A stretch of 64,000 nucleotides of DNA, taken from NCBI RefSeq assembly GCF_900167435.1, contig NZ_FUWS01000005.1, forward strand, positions 220,893 to 284,892, written 5' to 3'. Shown here in pieces: positions 42,918 to 48,448 of this stretch (within the stretch, counting starts at the first letter, position 1; each line of letters begins with the position of its first letter). The DNA is from Marinactinospora thermotolerans DSM 45154. Lineage in GTDB: Bacteria; Actinomycetota; Actinomycetes; Streptosporangiales; Streptosporangiaceae. The notes beneath the pieces were generated by a model, which worked only from the letters and a program-made list of their open reading frames with translations, did no database searches and was not told where the DNA came from. Both the position numbers and the translations under genes were made by a program.

Positions 42918-42926
42918 GTCACTGGG

Positions 42927-43294
42927 TGGAGGTGGCGGGAATCGAACCCGCGTCCTTCGGTACCGCAACAGGGCTTCTCCGGGCGCAGTCTGCTGTACGT
43001 TCTACTCGGCTCCAGCGCTCACGCAGACGTGTCGCTGACAAGCCCAGCCACGTGAATTTCCCGATCGGGCCCCGTGGCCTGATCCGACCGGTAAGTCTCC
43101 TGAACGATGCCGGAACCTGAGCCGGAGACGAGCTCAGGCCGACAGAGTCGCTATCGCTTAGGCAGCGAGAGCGAACTCAGTGCGCTTAGAATTGGCACTT
43201 GTATTTATGCGATCGCAGGATTTACGAGGTCACAACCGCAACCCTCGGCCCGCTTCCCCTGGAACAACCACCGAAGTCGAAACCGATCACCCCC
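42927..43294 (-). ncRNA. ssrA: Transfer-messenger RNA (tmRNA)
   Basis: About 368 nt. The 5' end GGGGGTGATCGGTTTCGACT and the 3' T-arm plus acceptor (GGGTTCGATTCCCGCCACCT) form the tRNA-like domain; GGGGGTG pairs with CACCTCC over 7 bp. The tag reading frame follows the resume codon as ANSKRTEFALAA with a TAA stop, ending in the protease-recognised FALAA. Pseudoknot-like GC stems fill the rest. It rescues ribosomes stalled on broken mRNA together with SmpB, whose gene lies 2.6 kb upstream on the same strand with the PBP-like gene between. Confidence 0.95.
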
Positions 43295-43388: not shown

Positions 43389-43891
43389 GTCGATTCCCGC
43401 CCGGCGGAGATTTTTCGGAGCGACGTCACAACCGGGCCGATGAGCGCCGGGGACTCCAAGCCCGCACATGAGAAACCCCCGCGGGCGCGGACGGGATCCA
43501 TCGACGCTGCCCGCGAGGGCGGCCGGCAGGGTCGGGCCGGCCTCGAAACGACAGGGCCTCCCCCGAGACGAGGTCCTGTCCCTCAGGACTGGTCACCGCA
43601 ACCCCCTTTACGGTTCCAGTCATAGGGGAAGACGCCCCACACCACGGGCCGGGTTGCCCCATTGGCCGAGTTTGCTGGTGTTTTGCCCGGTGAGCTCTTC
43701 CCGGAAGCCGCCGTCCCGACCGTCCAAGGACCACCCGCCCCCGTCCCGGGAGATCCCTACCACCGGCCCTTGGCCACACCCGCGAACACGGCGGGCACGC
43801 CCTGTGCCCCGACCCGCGGTCCCCACGGCCACCCCGTCCGGTCCGCGACCGGCGATCCCGTCGTCGCGCGGGCCGGGGTCGGAAAAACGGA
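43389..43891. other. Intergenic stretch between ssrA and the PBP-like gene
   Basis: About 500 bp without a believable reading frame, tRNA or riboswitch. GGGCCTCCCCCGAGACGAGGTCCTGTCCC near 43553-43582 can fold weakly. Nothing else is seen. Confidence 0.4.
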
Positions 43892-43922
43892 CGTGGGGCC
43901 GGGCGAATCGCCCGGCCCCACG
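43892..43922 (-). terminator. Intrinsic terminator of the PBP-like gene
   Basis: CGTGGGGCCGGGCG (43892-43905) and CGCCCGGCCCCACG (43909-43922) make a perfect 14-bp stem with a 3-nt loop. On the minus strand it is followed after three bases by TTTTT (43887-43883), so this is a classical Rho-independent terminator for leftward transcription. Confidence 0.9.
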
Positions 43923-43935
43923 TCAGCGGCGGAGG

Positions 43936-45900
43936 TCAGTACACCGGGTCGACGGCGGGAACCCCACCGGCGTCGGCGGCGCTTCCCTCCTGCGCCGTCG
44001 TGTCCTGCACATACCCGTAGGGCAGGCGCTGGAGGAAGTCGGCCGCGGCCGAGACCGCGAAGGAGTAGGTGTTCGCGGGGTCGGTCTCCACCGCCACCGC
44101 GAAGGCGACCTGGCCCTGGTAGCCGACGAACCACTGGACCGCGCCGGCCTCGCCGTCGATCTCCTGCTCGGCGAAGCCCACCTGGCCGTGCACCGGCACC
44201 ATCCCGATGTTGGCCGCCGCCGCGGACCCCTCTTGCACGGTCGAGCGCATCATCGCCCGCAGCGACTCCACCACGGCCGGATCGAGCTCGACGGAGGGGG
44301 ACTCCTCGGTGCCTTCCTCGTCGGCGACCAGGCGAGGCGCGTGCCAGGTCCCCTCGGCCACCGCCGCGGCGACCGTGGCCATCGTCAAGGGGCTGACCTT
44401 GACACCGTCGGCGCCCACCATGGCCGCCGCGATGCCGGCCTCGCCGCCTCCCGGGGCGAACTCACCGGTGTAGGCGGGCACCGGAACCTGCCAGTCGCCT
44501 CCGATACCGAAGTCGGCCGCGGCGGCGTTCAGCGCCTCGGGGTCGGCCTCGGCCGCCAGGCCGGCGAAGGTGGTGGCGCAGGCGTTGGCGAACGCGCGGG
44601 TCAGGTCGGGCTGGCCCCACATCAGGGAGGCACCGCCGGGGTTGGTGAAGGTGCGGTCGCCGATGGTGGTCTCCGCGTCGCAGGTCACCGCCTGGTCCGC
44701 GCTCACCGCACCGGAGCCCAGGAGGGCGGCGGCCGAGACGATCGTGAACGCCTCACCCGGGTGGTACTCCCTGGTGAAGGCACCGACGTTGTCGACCTCG
44801 TCGGGCCGGCCGGCGGCCCCCAGGATCTCGCCGTTGCGGGCGTCGAGGGCCACGAGGTAGGCGCTGCCCGGGAGCAGCTCCAGAGCCCCCTCGGCGGCGG
44901 TCTGGACGTCGCTGTCGAGGGTGGTGGTGAGCGAACCGCTCTCCTGTCCGGCCCACTCGTGCAGGACCTCGGTCTCGCCGCCCTGTTCGTCGAGGGTGAC
45001 CACCTTGGTGGTCGCGGATCCCGCGAGCCTTTGCTGGTAGACGCTCTGCAGGCCGCCGAGGCCCACCGTGTCGCCGGCCTGGTAGGGGCCCGAGACCCGG
45101 GAGGAGACCTTGTGCTCGACCGTTCCGGCGACCTCGCCGACGATCGCGGAGGCCATGTTGGGGGCGAGCGGCATCTTCAGCTCACTCGTCTCGACGCCGG
45201 GAATACCCGTGGCGCGGGACAGGAGCGAGGGGTCGACGTCCTGGGCACGCATGAGCACCAAGGGCTGGAACTCCTCCGGCGGCGCCGAGCGCACCCGGTT
45301 GAGCAACGGCTCGGGATCCTCGCCGAGGATCTCGGCGAGGTCCTGGATACCGCCCTCCATGTCGTCCATCCGGGCCGGGCGGACACCGAAGGCGATGACG
45401 TCGGTCTCGCCGACGAGCGGCTGCTCGGAACGGTCGTAGATCTGGCCGCGGTCGGGCACGTCGTAGGTGATGGCCAGCCGCTCGCCCTCGGCGAGGCGCG
45501 GGTGGATGACGGCGGGCGACCAGTTGATGGCCCACCCCTCGGAGGTGCGCGAGAGGGGCATGCTGCCCTCGTACTCCCACACCGGGTCGCCGATCCCCAG
45601 GTCGGCCTGTACGTCGAACGAGGCTGTCGCCGTGTCCCCATCGATGGAGATGGGTCCCAGGCCCAGCCGTAGCGCCGCCAGGTCGAGCTGGTCGTGCGCC
45701 TGCTGGAGGGCCGCGGCGACCGAGTCGACGTCGCCGTCGGTCTGGCGGGCCGCGGCCTCGTAGTCGCCGGCCTGCCAGTCGAGCAGGAACGTGCGGACGG
45801 CGACCTCGGGGCTGGGCTCCGCCGCGCAACCGGCCATGACGGTCACCGTGGCGGCGCTCACCGTCGCGGCCAGGAAACGACGGAGGTGACGGGGGGACAC
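43936..45900 (-). CDS. Lipoprotein with NTF2-like and transpeptidase-like domains, catalytic motifs lost
   Basis: A protein of about 654 residues. A lipobox VMAGC (21-25) marks a lipoprotein; an NTF2-like MecA_N domain, a PBP dimerisation domain (GQIYDRSEQPLV) and a transpeptidase-like domain follow. The fold signature is clear (LDSDVQTAAEGAL, then ALDARNGEILGAAG), but the three active-site motifs are all replaced. SxxK (as in YPPGSTFK) is YHPGEAFT, SxN is ACA in FANACATTF, and KTGT is QVGF in GQVGFAEQ. It should therefore not form an acyl-enzyme with peptidoglycan or beta-lactams and is probably a structural or regulatory wall protein. GTG 45900 follows AAAGGA; longer starts are less likely. 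It sits 22 bp after smpB. Confidence 0.88.
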   Translation of the reverse strand: MSPRHLRRFLAATVSAATVTVMAGCAAEPSPEVAVRTFLLDWQAGDYEAAARQTDGDVDSVAAALQQAHDQLDLAALRLGLGPISIDGDTATASFDVQADLGIGDPVWEYEGSMPLSRTSEGWAINWSPAVIHPRLAEGERLAITYDVPDRGQIYDRSEQPLVGETDVIAFGVRPARMDDMEGGIQDLAEILGEDPEPLLNRVRSAPPEEFQPLVLMRAQDVDPSLLSRATGIPGVETSELKMPLAPNMASAIVGEVAGTVEHKVSSRVSGPYQAGDTVGLGGLQSVYQQRLAGSATTKVVTLDEQGGETEVLHEWAGQESGSLTTTLDSDVQTAAEGALELLPGSAYLVALDARNGEILGAAGRPDEVDNVGAFTREYHPGEAFTIVSAAALLGSGAVSADQAVTCDAETTIGDRTFTNPGGASLMWGQPDLTRAFANACATTFAGLAAEADPEALNAAAADFGIGGDWQVPVPAYTGEFAPGGGEAGIAAAMVGADGVKVSPLTMATVAAAVAEGTWHAPRLVADEEGTEESPSVELDPAVVESLRAMMRSTVQEGSAAAANIGMVPVHGQVGFAEQEIDGEAGAVQWFVGYQGQVAFAVAVETDPANTYSFAVSAAADFLQRLPYGYVQDTTAQEGSAADAGGVPAVDPVY

Positions 45901-45922: not shown

Positions 45923-46387
45923 TCAGCGCCGACGCCGCAGGGCGCGTTCGACCTCACGCTGGGCCTCACGTTCGGCGATGTCGTGGCGTTTGTCGTATTC
46001 GCGCTTACCGCGCGCCAGCGCGATCTCGACCTTGGCCCGTCCGTCGCTGAAGTACAGCGACAGCGGGATCAGGGTGCGACCCGCTTCCTGGGTCTTGCCG
46101 ATGAGTTTGGCGATCTCCTCGCGGTGCAACAGCAGCTTGCGGGGCCGGCGCGTCTCGTGGTTGGTCCACGTCCCTTGGGTGTACTCCGGGATGTGGACGT
46201 TGTGCAGCCACACCTCGCCGTCCCTGACCAGCGCGAAACCGTCCACCAGGGAGGCCCGTCCGGCACGCAGCGACTTCACCTCGGTGCCGGTGAGGACGAG
46301 CCCCGCCTCGTAGGTGTCGTCAATGTGGTAGTCGTGCCGGGCACGCCGGTTCTGGGCGATGGTCTTGCGCCCCTTTTCCCGTGGCAC
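45923..46387 (-). CDS. smpB: SsrA-binding protein SmpB
   Basis: A 154-residue RNA-binding protein that carries tmRNA to stalled ribosomes. The OB fold is intact: [33 protein letters not shown] and [17 protein letters not shown] are the family blocks. The C-terminal tail is rich in Arg/Lys ([20 protein letters not shown] onward) and inserts in the mRNA channel. GTG at 46387 has AAAGGGG upstream. It follows ftsX by 22 bp and precedes the PBP-like gene; ssrA lies further downstream, so both partners of trans-translation are in one neighbourhood. Confidence 0.96.
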
Positions 46388-46409: not shown

Positions 46410-47318
46410 TCACACCCGCAGGTAGCGCCGCAGCGTCAGGAAGGAGGCGATGGTACAGAGCAGCACGCCGAGGATCATCGACACGCCGATGACGTAGAAG
46501 ACCGAGCCCATACCCAGCGTGACGTCGAACTGGAACCAGTCCTGGACCTTGTCCAGCAGGAAGAACTTCGTCGCCACGATGAAGCCCGAGGCGAAGATAC
46601 CGCCGATGAGACCGGCGATCGCGCCCTCCAGGAGGAAGGGGAGCTGGATGTAGAAGTTCGACGCGCCGACGAGCCGCATGATGCCGGTCTCGCGACGGCG
46701 GCTGTAGGCCGACAGGCGGATGGTGTTGCCGATCAGCAGCGCGGCGGCGGCCAGCTGGACGGCCGCGACGACGAGAGCGGCCCACTTGAGACCGTCGAGC
46801 AGCTCGAAGAACTGGTCGAGGACCTCCTGGTCGTTGGAGACCGAGTCCACGCCCGGCATTTCGGCGACCGCGCCCGCGACCGTGTCGTGATCGCCGGGGT
46901 CCTGGAGCTGCACCCGGAAGTTCGCCGGGATGTCCCCTTCCTCGGTCGCCTCGACCAGGGCCTCGCTGTTGGAGAAGCGGTCCTGGAAGTCCTGCCACGC
47001 CTCGCTCTCGGTCATGAAGGTGACCTGGGCGACCTCGGGCATGGACTCGAGCTGGGACTGGATCGCCTGCCGCTCTTCGTCGCTGGCCGCTCCGCTCTCC
47101 TGGCAGATGGCGCTCGGAGAGGTGTCGTTGCACAGGTAGACCGTGAGCGAGACACGCTCGCCCCAGTACCCGCGCATCTCGGAGACCTGCTGGTTGATGA
47201 GCAGACCGGCACCGAAGAGTGCCAACGAGATGGCCACCGTGGTGATCACCGCGATGGTCATCGTCAGATTCCGGCGCAGACCGATCCAGATCTCGGAAAG
47301 TACGAACTGTGCTCGCAT
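46410..47318 (-). CDS. ftsX: Cell division protein FtsX
   Basis: A 302-residue membrane protein of the FtsEX complex, which activates septal peptidoglycan hydrolases (RipC-type proteins in actinobacteria). Helix 1 (about 20-42), an extracytoplasmic domain with two Cys ([12 protein letters not shown]) and the conserved FRVQL segment, then three C-terminal helices around [20 protein letters not shown], which is the FtsX cytosolic loop touching FtsE. ATG at 47318. It lies 77 bp after ftsE on the same strand. Confidence 0.95.
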
Positions 47319-47395: not shown

Positions 47396-48085
47396 TCAGT
47401 ACGCCTGACCGTAGACACCACGCGACTGGTCCCGCACGACCTGGCCCTCTTCGAGCTCGATGACACGTTTGCGCATCGAGTCGACGATGGCGGCATCGTG
47501 GGTCGCCATGACGACGGTCGTTCCCGTCCGGTTGATTCGGTCGAGCACCTTCATGATGCCGATCGAGGTGGCAGGGTCGATGTTCCCGGTGGGCTCGTCG
47601 GCCAGCAGGATCTGCGGACGGTTGACGAACGCGCGCGCGATCGCGACGCGCTGCTGCTCACCACCCGAAAGCTCGTCGGGCATGCGGGTGGACTTGCCTT
47701 CCAGCCCGACCAGCTCCACGACCTCGGGAACGACCTTGCGGATGAATCGGCGGGGCTTGCCGATGACCTCCAGCGCGAACGCGACGTTCTCGAAGACGTT
47801 CTTGTTCGGCAGCAGCCGGAAGTCCTGGAAGACGCAGCCGATGCGGCGCCGCAGGTGCGGCACCTTCCAGTTGGACAGACGAGCGAGGTCCTTGCCCGCG
47901 ACATGGACCCGCCCCTTGGTGGGCTTCTCCTCCTTGAGGACGAGCCGCAGGAACGTTGACTTACCCGAGCCGGACGGACCGACGAGGAAGACGAACTCCC
48001 CCTTGTCGACGTCGATGGAAACGCCGTCGAGAGCGGGGCGTTTCTGGGTCGGGTAGACCTTGGTGACGTTTTCGAAGTGGATCAC
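47396..48085 (-). CDS. ftsE: Cell division ATP-binding protein FtsE
   Basis: A 229-residue ABC ATPase. Walker [10 protein letters not shown], the Q loop, signature LSGGEQQR and Walker [13 protein letters not shown] are all intact, and [20 protein letters not shown] is the FtsE N-terminus. It drives FtsX to switch on wall hydrolases at the septum. GTG 48085 gives the standard family length; the open frame upstream is not protein-like. Its ribosome site is weak. A 360-bp gap separates it from prfB, so it probably has its own promoter. Confidence 0.95.
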
Positions 48086-48448
48086 AGGTGCATCACAAGG
48101 TTCTCGAAGGTTGGGGAGCCCAGGCGGAACCCATCCGCTCGGGGCAGTACCGGCCACAGGGCCAATCGACAGTGTAGGGGTGAATGCAACCCGGAATGTC
48201 CAGATCGAGACTCGTTCCCGGAACGATCCCACGGAGGCGGAACCGGTTCTCCGGAACGGCCGTCTCTTCCTCCCCCTGCCACCACGGCGTCGCCATCGCG
48301 CCGGGACACCGGGGGTTCACGGGGCATCCACTCCCACGCCGCGCTCGACCGAGCTGCGGAACGGAACAGCAGGACCGAGCATATCGGAAGAGTCAACCGG
48401 TGATAACGTTCACATATACGTGTTTCCGATAAAACCGCTGCTCCGGCG
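48086..48448 (-). promoter_or_regulatory. ftsE upstream region with a candidate promoter
   Basis: On the minus strand TTATCA (about 48406-48401) and TATGCT (about 48383-48378) stand 17 bp apart and could be the ftsE promoter, leaving a 5' leader of nearly 290 nt. An AT-rich patch with TGATAACGTTCACATATACG (plus strand, about 48400-48420) lies at its upstream edge. No conserved RNA structure is recognised. Confidence 0.4.

Follow-up and report, generated by a model that had tools for sequence, protein, structure and literature searches.

The question raised by this locus is what a protein with the fold of a penicillin-binding protein (PBP) does when the residues that make such a protein an enzyme are missing. 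In the window, i.e. the whole stretch of 64,000 nucleotides from Marinactinospora thermotolerans DSM 45154 that was analysed, an open reading frame on the minus strand runs from a GTG start codon at 45900 to a stop codon at 43938-43936. A sequence-only reading had reported that all three PBP active-site motifs are replaced in its product, that smpB, ftsX and ftsE are its neighbours and that a terminator follows it; the open reading frame, the coordinates and the strand given there are all correct. The features concerned are the following.

43936-45900, minus strand: pseudo-transpeptidase gene, encoding a lipoprotein of 654 amino acids with MecA_N, PBP_dimer and a Transpeptidase domain without catalytic motifs
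45484-45810, minus strand: MecA_N (NTF2-like) domain, residues 31-139 (Pfam PF05223, 1.8e-12)
44968-45459, minus strand: PBP_dimer domain, residues 148-311 (Pfam PF03717, 8.1e-16)
44044-44859, minus strand: Transpeptidase domain without catalytic motifs, residues 348-619 (Pfam PF00905, 1.2e-26)
44743-44757, minus strand: GEAFT at the SxxK position, residues 382-386
44575-44583, minus strand: ACA at the SxN position, residues 440-442, Cys441 being conserved
44173-44184, minus strand: QVGF at the KTGT position, residues 573-576
43890-43924, minus strand: hairpin resembling an intrinsic terminator, with a 16-pair stem and a T5 tail, after the stop codon
42925-43294, minus strand: tmRNA gene ssrA (ARAGORN), downstream of the pseudo-transpeptidase gene
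45923-46387, minus strand: smpB, directly upstream at a distance of 22 bp (Pfam PF01668)
46410-47318, minus strand: ftsX (Pfam PF18075 and PF02687)
47396-48232, minus strand: ftsE, so named by sequence and location; the listed start probably lies too far upstream

MecA_N, PBP_dimer and Transpeptidase all scored well above the Pfam cut-offs (94 bits against a cut-off of 22 for Transpeptidase), which is the domain set of a MecA_N-type class B PBP. A lipobox, VMAGC, is found at residues 21-25 and provides the predicted membrane anchor; a simple lipobox-like pattern is present in 142 of 154 relatives. SxxK, SxN and KTG are the catalytic motifs defining penicillin-binding transpeptidases. Here SxxK reads EAFT, with Glu383 in place of the Ser and Thr386 in place of the Lys, SxN reads ACA, and KTGT reads QVGF (neither KTG nor KSG). 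The protein is a class B PBP by descent and fold, whereas by the catalytic features tested it would not be a functional one, and pseudo-transpeptidase appears to be the name due to it.

The AlphaFold2 model had a mean pLDDT of 89.4 and a pTM of 0.83 (53 sequences), with a pLDDT of 95-98 in the ten-residue blocks containing the motifs. The helix of penicillin-binding transpeptidases normally begins at the catalytic Ser; in the model a helix begins at residue 382, where the SxxK helix belongs, and residues 570-581 form a strand at the place of the KTG strand. Foldseek placed the model among the active MecA_N-type class B PBPs (B. subtilis PBP3, E. faecium PBP5 and S. aureus PBP2a), and the comparison with class B-like transpeptidase structures by VIA-align gave Z scores of 37-40 (maximum 39.8) over residues of about 146-632. 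As the VIA-align rows span residues 139-637 and barely cover MecA_N, the fold of that domain rests on Pfam and Foldseek. Model, Foldseek and VIA-align thus all give a class B PBP fold.

An alignment artefact, or a catalytic Ser shifted to another place, was considered and rejected, because the intact paralogue of the same genome and the intact orthologues align through the same columns and the model helix begins at residue 382. The replacement of the three motifs by GEAFT, ACA and QVGF was thereby borne out, and the displaced catalytic Ser that would have told against it was not found.

Regarding the spread of the loss, the motif columns were read in the 150 genomes of the Streptosporangiales order sample and nine further genomes of the order, the own genome included (159 in total). 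Searched with the protein, 149 of the 150 sampled genomes gave a match at E <= 1e-60; at E <= 0.001 a match was obtained in 41 of 41 genomes, the weak matches from distant families possibly representing other PBPs. Absence of the gene from the remaining genome (G048) was rejected, as its contig carries smpB and then breaks off after the first 56 residues of the gene; its motif columns were unreadable. The gene is therefore present in every Streptosporangiales genome sampled, incomplete copies sitting at contig ends. Internal stops suspected in two copies (L232 and L263) proved to be terminal stops.

Three genomes of family f3 carry intact motifs (STFK, SCN and KTGT). Outside this family, the Lys of SxxK (position 386) was found in none of the 155 readable rows, own included, and a local oddity or a sequencing error was rejected on this count; the Lys of KTG (position 573) was found in none of 154. 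The Ser of SxxK is retained in 14 of 155, yet without the Lys; at SxN the Ser is retained in 38 and the Asn in 15 of the 155 rows, and all five catalytic residues are gone in 96. No single replacement residue is fixed at the catalytic positions of the degenerate clade: residue 383 is T in 58 rows, G in 31, E in 19, S in 14, M in 11 and another residue in 22, and residue 386 is S in 75, T in 50, G in 28 and another residue in 2. The surrounding positions are nearly invariant in the degenerate rows, namely G382 (155/155), F385 (154/155), C407 (155/155) and C441, W590, F591 and G593 (each 154 of 154 readable). Neither Lys was kept in any of 80 loci from named genomes, which include Nocardiopsis, Streptomonospora, Thermobifida, Actinomadura, Actinoallomurus, Nonomuraea, Planotetraspora, Microbispora and Sphaerisporangium; these are the best 80 of 400 matches obtained with a degenerate query and thus biased to the degenerate clade, and because they were ranked by likeness to that query the count over the 150 and nine genomes is the more trustworthy. 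The losses, for which fixation within Nocardiopsaceae had been proposed as a check, are fixed well beyond that family.

Orthology could be followed through the neighbourhood. In 157 of 158 other Streptosporangiales genomes the gene comes directly after smpB on the same strand (median gap about 50 bp), and in the one exception (G047) the start of the contig falls inside the gene. Intact orthologues linked to smpB were found in family f3 (three of three, L212-L214) and, outside the order, in two more distant families (L176 in f9 and L177 in f37), all with ftsX and ftsE further upstream; in the remaining intact members of the class that were examined smpB does not adjoin the gene. In a tree of 71 proteins with the motif columns removed (quick search and midpoint root, the deeper branching not being firm), the 31 degenerate rows form one clade with an SH-aLRT support of 100 and require a single state change, and the MecA_N paralogues with intact motifs that these genomes also carry fall elsewhere. 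Given this single origin and the intact orthologues beside smpB, catalysis was therefore lost once and the gene was kept. The simplest history would begin with an active, smpB-linked class B PBP in a common ancestor with f3, f9 and f37, catalysis then having been lost a single time on the line leading to f1 and f2. Orthologues with intact motifs, which had been expected to speak against a dead PBP, thus do occur (f3, f9 and f37); they do not refute it and instead polarise the change from an active ancestor through one loss. An active ancestor, a fixed loss of catalytic residues and a retained gene, the marks of a pseudoenzyme, are all found. As a separate observation, a second MecA_N-type PBP of another actinobacterial family (L208, G040:C1:4088064-4093617) reads TAFK, SCN and TTGT, with an intact copy (L180) beside it in the same genome; it is possibly an independent case of active-site loss under way.

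smpB and ftsX were confirmed upstream on the same strand, as had been stated, ftsE being named from its sequence; an ftsE relative occupies the same place in 79 of the 80 named loci (best 80 of 400 matches). The terminator likewise stands, as the 16-pair stem and T5 tail at 43924-43890. ssrA had been missed; with it at 42925-43294, the pseudo-transpeptidase gene lies between smpB and ssrA, and the gene order is ftsE, ftsX, smpB, the dead PBP and ssrA. ssrA likewise follows the gene at the intact loci L176 and L177 and at 27 of the 29 degenerate loci that were scanned; none was seen in the 2-3 kb covered downstream of the three f3 genes or at six other intact loci scanned. The tmRNA tag of the window is ANSKRTEFALAA; several Streptosporangiaceae loci have a longer predicted tag of different composition, e.g. 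ANNMRTEASQGSLALAA in L111. An S41 peptidase with a PDZ domain lies between ftsX and smpB in Actinomadura and others (L099:2264-3466) and, by sequence, at that place in L177; the window has no room for it.

The selection acting on the gene was estimated from 20 independent close pairs (dS 0.04-0.30) by simple Nei-Gojobori counts with the G+C bias uncorrected, which gave a pooled pN/pS of 0.38 for the pseudo-transpeptidase, compared with 0.085 for SmpB and 0.20 for FtsX, and of 0.30 for MecA_N, 0.31 for the dimer domain and 0.43 for the transpeptidase domain. Estimates of dN/dS from more distant pairs were dropped, since ratios above 1 occurred between distant species and the G+C-rich genes appear to be saturated at synonymous sites. 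MecA_N is the best conserved part of the protein in the degenerate clade: among the 31 degenerate proteins its mean identity was 47.7% as against 39.6% for the transpeptidase domain, which was the better conserved in only 60 of 465 pairs. The order is reversed among 22 intact orthologues (the long-branched rows L194 and L195 excluded), with 50.2% for the transpeptidase and 28.7% for MecA_N and the transpeptidase higher in 230 of 231 pairs; in 13 intact paralogues the transpeptidase was better conserved in 78 of 78 pairs. Positions of MecA_N conserved at 85% or more only in the degenerate clade include Q43, A50, A51, T54, D73 and D100, and many positions conserved only in the intact proteins are catalytic or adjoin the active site. 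Constraint has shifted away from the transpeptidase and onto the MecA_N domain, a pattern that would be expected if catalysis gave way to binding, though the compared groups differ in breadth. As the transpeptidase domain is relaxed relative to the N-terminal domains, the N-terminal half seems to carry more of the function that was kept. The earlier statement that selection has kept the domain and not the chemistry thus holds for the protein, which is retained under purifying selection, and less so for the transpeptidase domain itself, whose constraint is relaxed against that of the N-terminal domains.

A second, active paralogue had been suggested as a thing to look for, and one that is active by its motifs was found. 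The own genome holds nine PF00905 loci, of which L004 is the nearest relative of the dead PBP. Both belong to the same MecA_N and transpeptidase families (39% identity over residues 251-626); L004 differs in its intact motifs (SAFK, SCN and KTGS), in a PBP_dimer domain of which only a fragment is left, and in its location on contig C33 rather than on that of smpB. With L004 as query, 145 of 150 genomes matched at 1e-80, three of them f3 genomes, where nothing but the smpB-linked gene matches even at 1e-30. The paralogue was found in 142 of 147 degenerate-group genomes at 1e-80, and a more distant one (42%) in G071, which gives 143 of 147 as against none of three f3 genomes. None was found with this query in G121, G024, G138 and G166, and it is also absent from G034 and G240. 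In all 13 paralogues examined the Ser and Lys of SxxK are present and the middle of the dimer domain is missing.

This complementary wear of two MecA_N-type PBPs suggests a division of labour. A tentative proposal is that two class B PBPs share the work, the smpB-linked one having kept the anchor, MecA_N and the dimer domain and the paralogue having kept catalysis; since four genomes have no paralogue, such a partnership is not obligatory everywhere. The dead partner may position or activate the live transpeptidase at a division site controlled by FtsEX, much as pseudokinases serve kinases, and would itself be immune to beta-lactams. Elsewhere in the own genome, an ORF of 403 amino acids (L009, G000:C23:52179-52718) with a weak Transpeptidase match reads AETFE at SxxK and keeps YGKSG; it is perhaps a second pseudoenzyme, and presumably resembles a class D beta-lactamase or the sensor domain of BlaR, a likeness noted by eye.

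The pseudo-transpeptidase probably serves wall synthesis as a scaffold or regulator without catalytic activity. It would be a pseudoenzyme derived from a MecA_N-type class B PBP: its two catalytic lysines would have been lost first, in the ancestor of f1 and f2, and much of the remaining active site later, every sampled descendant retaining the protein. With its class B PBP fold it would most likely be held on the outer face of the membrane by the lipid anchor and be acylated by neither peptidoglycan nor beta-lactams, and it may scaffold or regulate wall synthesis (probably septal) through partners contacted via the MecA_N and dimerisation domains. The MecA_N-type paralogue, with its intact active site and reduced dimerisation domain, would be the likeliest catalytic partner. 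Because the motifs are missing, and from the motifs alone, we infer that catalysis is wholly absent, and we likewise infer the role in division and the identity of the partner. A beta-lactam-insensitive regulator or scaffold, as first proposed, is plausible on these grounds. The 14 rows that keep the Ser of SxxK without the Lys speak against this interpretation. As FtsEX also neighbours smpB and ssrA, the neighbourhood alone is no proof of a division role, and the weaker constraint on the transpeptidase domain would equally fit a slow decay of that domain.

Four other explanations were weighed. A ligand-sensing receptor, in which the dead cleft binds D-Ala-D-Ala stems, lipid II or beta-lactams unreacted and signals to FtsEX or another partner, would agree with the (near-)invariant residues around the cleft (G382, F385, C407, C441, W590, F591 and G593) and with the high confidence predicted for this part of the fold; it is improbable, given that the residues lining the catalytic site vary and that the transpeptidase is the least constrained domain, which does not suggest one specific ligand. 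The invariance of Cys441, together with a Ser or Thr at 386 in 125 of 155 rows, could also point to an enzyme that uses another centre of the cleft, e.g. Cys441 or a Ser/Thr at 383 or 386. Cys441 is, however, shared by 40 of 40 intact relatives along with Cys407 (39/40), which would fit a disulfide, neither catalytic position holds a Lys, and 383 and 573 vary, so that this explanation is very unlikely.

Equally slim is the chance of a decaying relic heading for loss: the pN/pS above those of SmpB and FtsX and the relaxed transpeptidase domain are what it would predict, whereas retention in every sampled genome of the order already disfavours it, as do the newly conserved positions in MecA_N. 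That the gene is flanked by smpB and ssrA in 27 of the 29 degenerate loci scanned could mark it as a component of ribosome rescue or a mere passenger of the smpB-ssrA locus; the protein is by sequence an exported lipoprotein, and ordinary class B PBPs occupy this place where the orthologue is intact, which leaves this explanation with hardly any likelihood. The non-catalytic scaffold or regulator remains the preferred reading, and annotation of the gene as a transpeptidase from its domain would mislead on function. The pseudo-transpeptidase also offers a way to study the non-catalytic role of class B PBPs free of catalysis and of inhibition by beta-lactams.

Among known proteins, the MecA_N-type class B PBPs (B. 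subtilis PBP3, E. faecium PBP5 and S. aureus PBP2a) share the three-domain order and the fold. The best PDB match by sequence was B. subtilis PBP3 (7bn9, E 5.2e-25), which was also the best Foldseek match (E 6.8e-39, TM 0.60). These three are active enzymes that are acylated by beta-lactams, and several of the PDB entries matched by Foldseek are acyl-enzymes, whereas the pseudo-transpeptidase lacks SxxK, SxN and KTG. Natural PBP pseudoenzymes spread over an order were not met in the literature searches, whose coverage leaves out most subscription journals, so that absence from print is not implied. The smpB-linked gene was not mentioned in the titles and opening lines of abstracts returned, nor in the matching passages of reviews of actinobacterial PBPs (word search).

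Mycobacterial PBP-lipo (Rv2864c, MAB_3167c), which we take to carry a MecA_N domain, is likewise an actinobacterial class B PBP named as a lipoprotein. Unlike the pseudo-transpeptidase it requires its catalytic Ser: PBP-lipo of M. abscessus has a septal role and S364A gives no rescue, Ser364 being needed (PMC9170245), so that a scaffold role is no general property of lipoprotein PBPs. Class B PBPs that matter without transpeptidase activity are already known from engineered mutants. In B. subtilis, catalytically dead PBP 2B (S309A) supports division provided that PBP 3 is present (PMC5656894), and in C. difficile the class B PBP3 with a mutated Ser (S299A) promotes septum formation (PMC12539705). 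Both are point mutants made in the laboratory, whereas the loss in the pseudo-transpeptidase is natural and fixed over nearly the whole order. Evolution appears to have run the catalysis-loss experiment once, and to have kept the result over nearly an entire order of actinobacteria.
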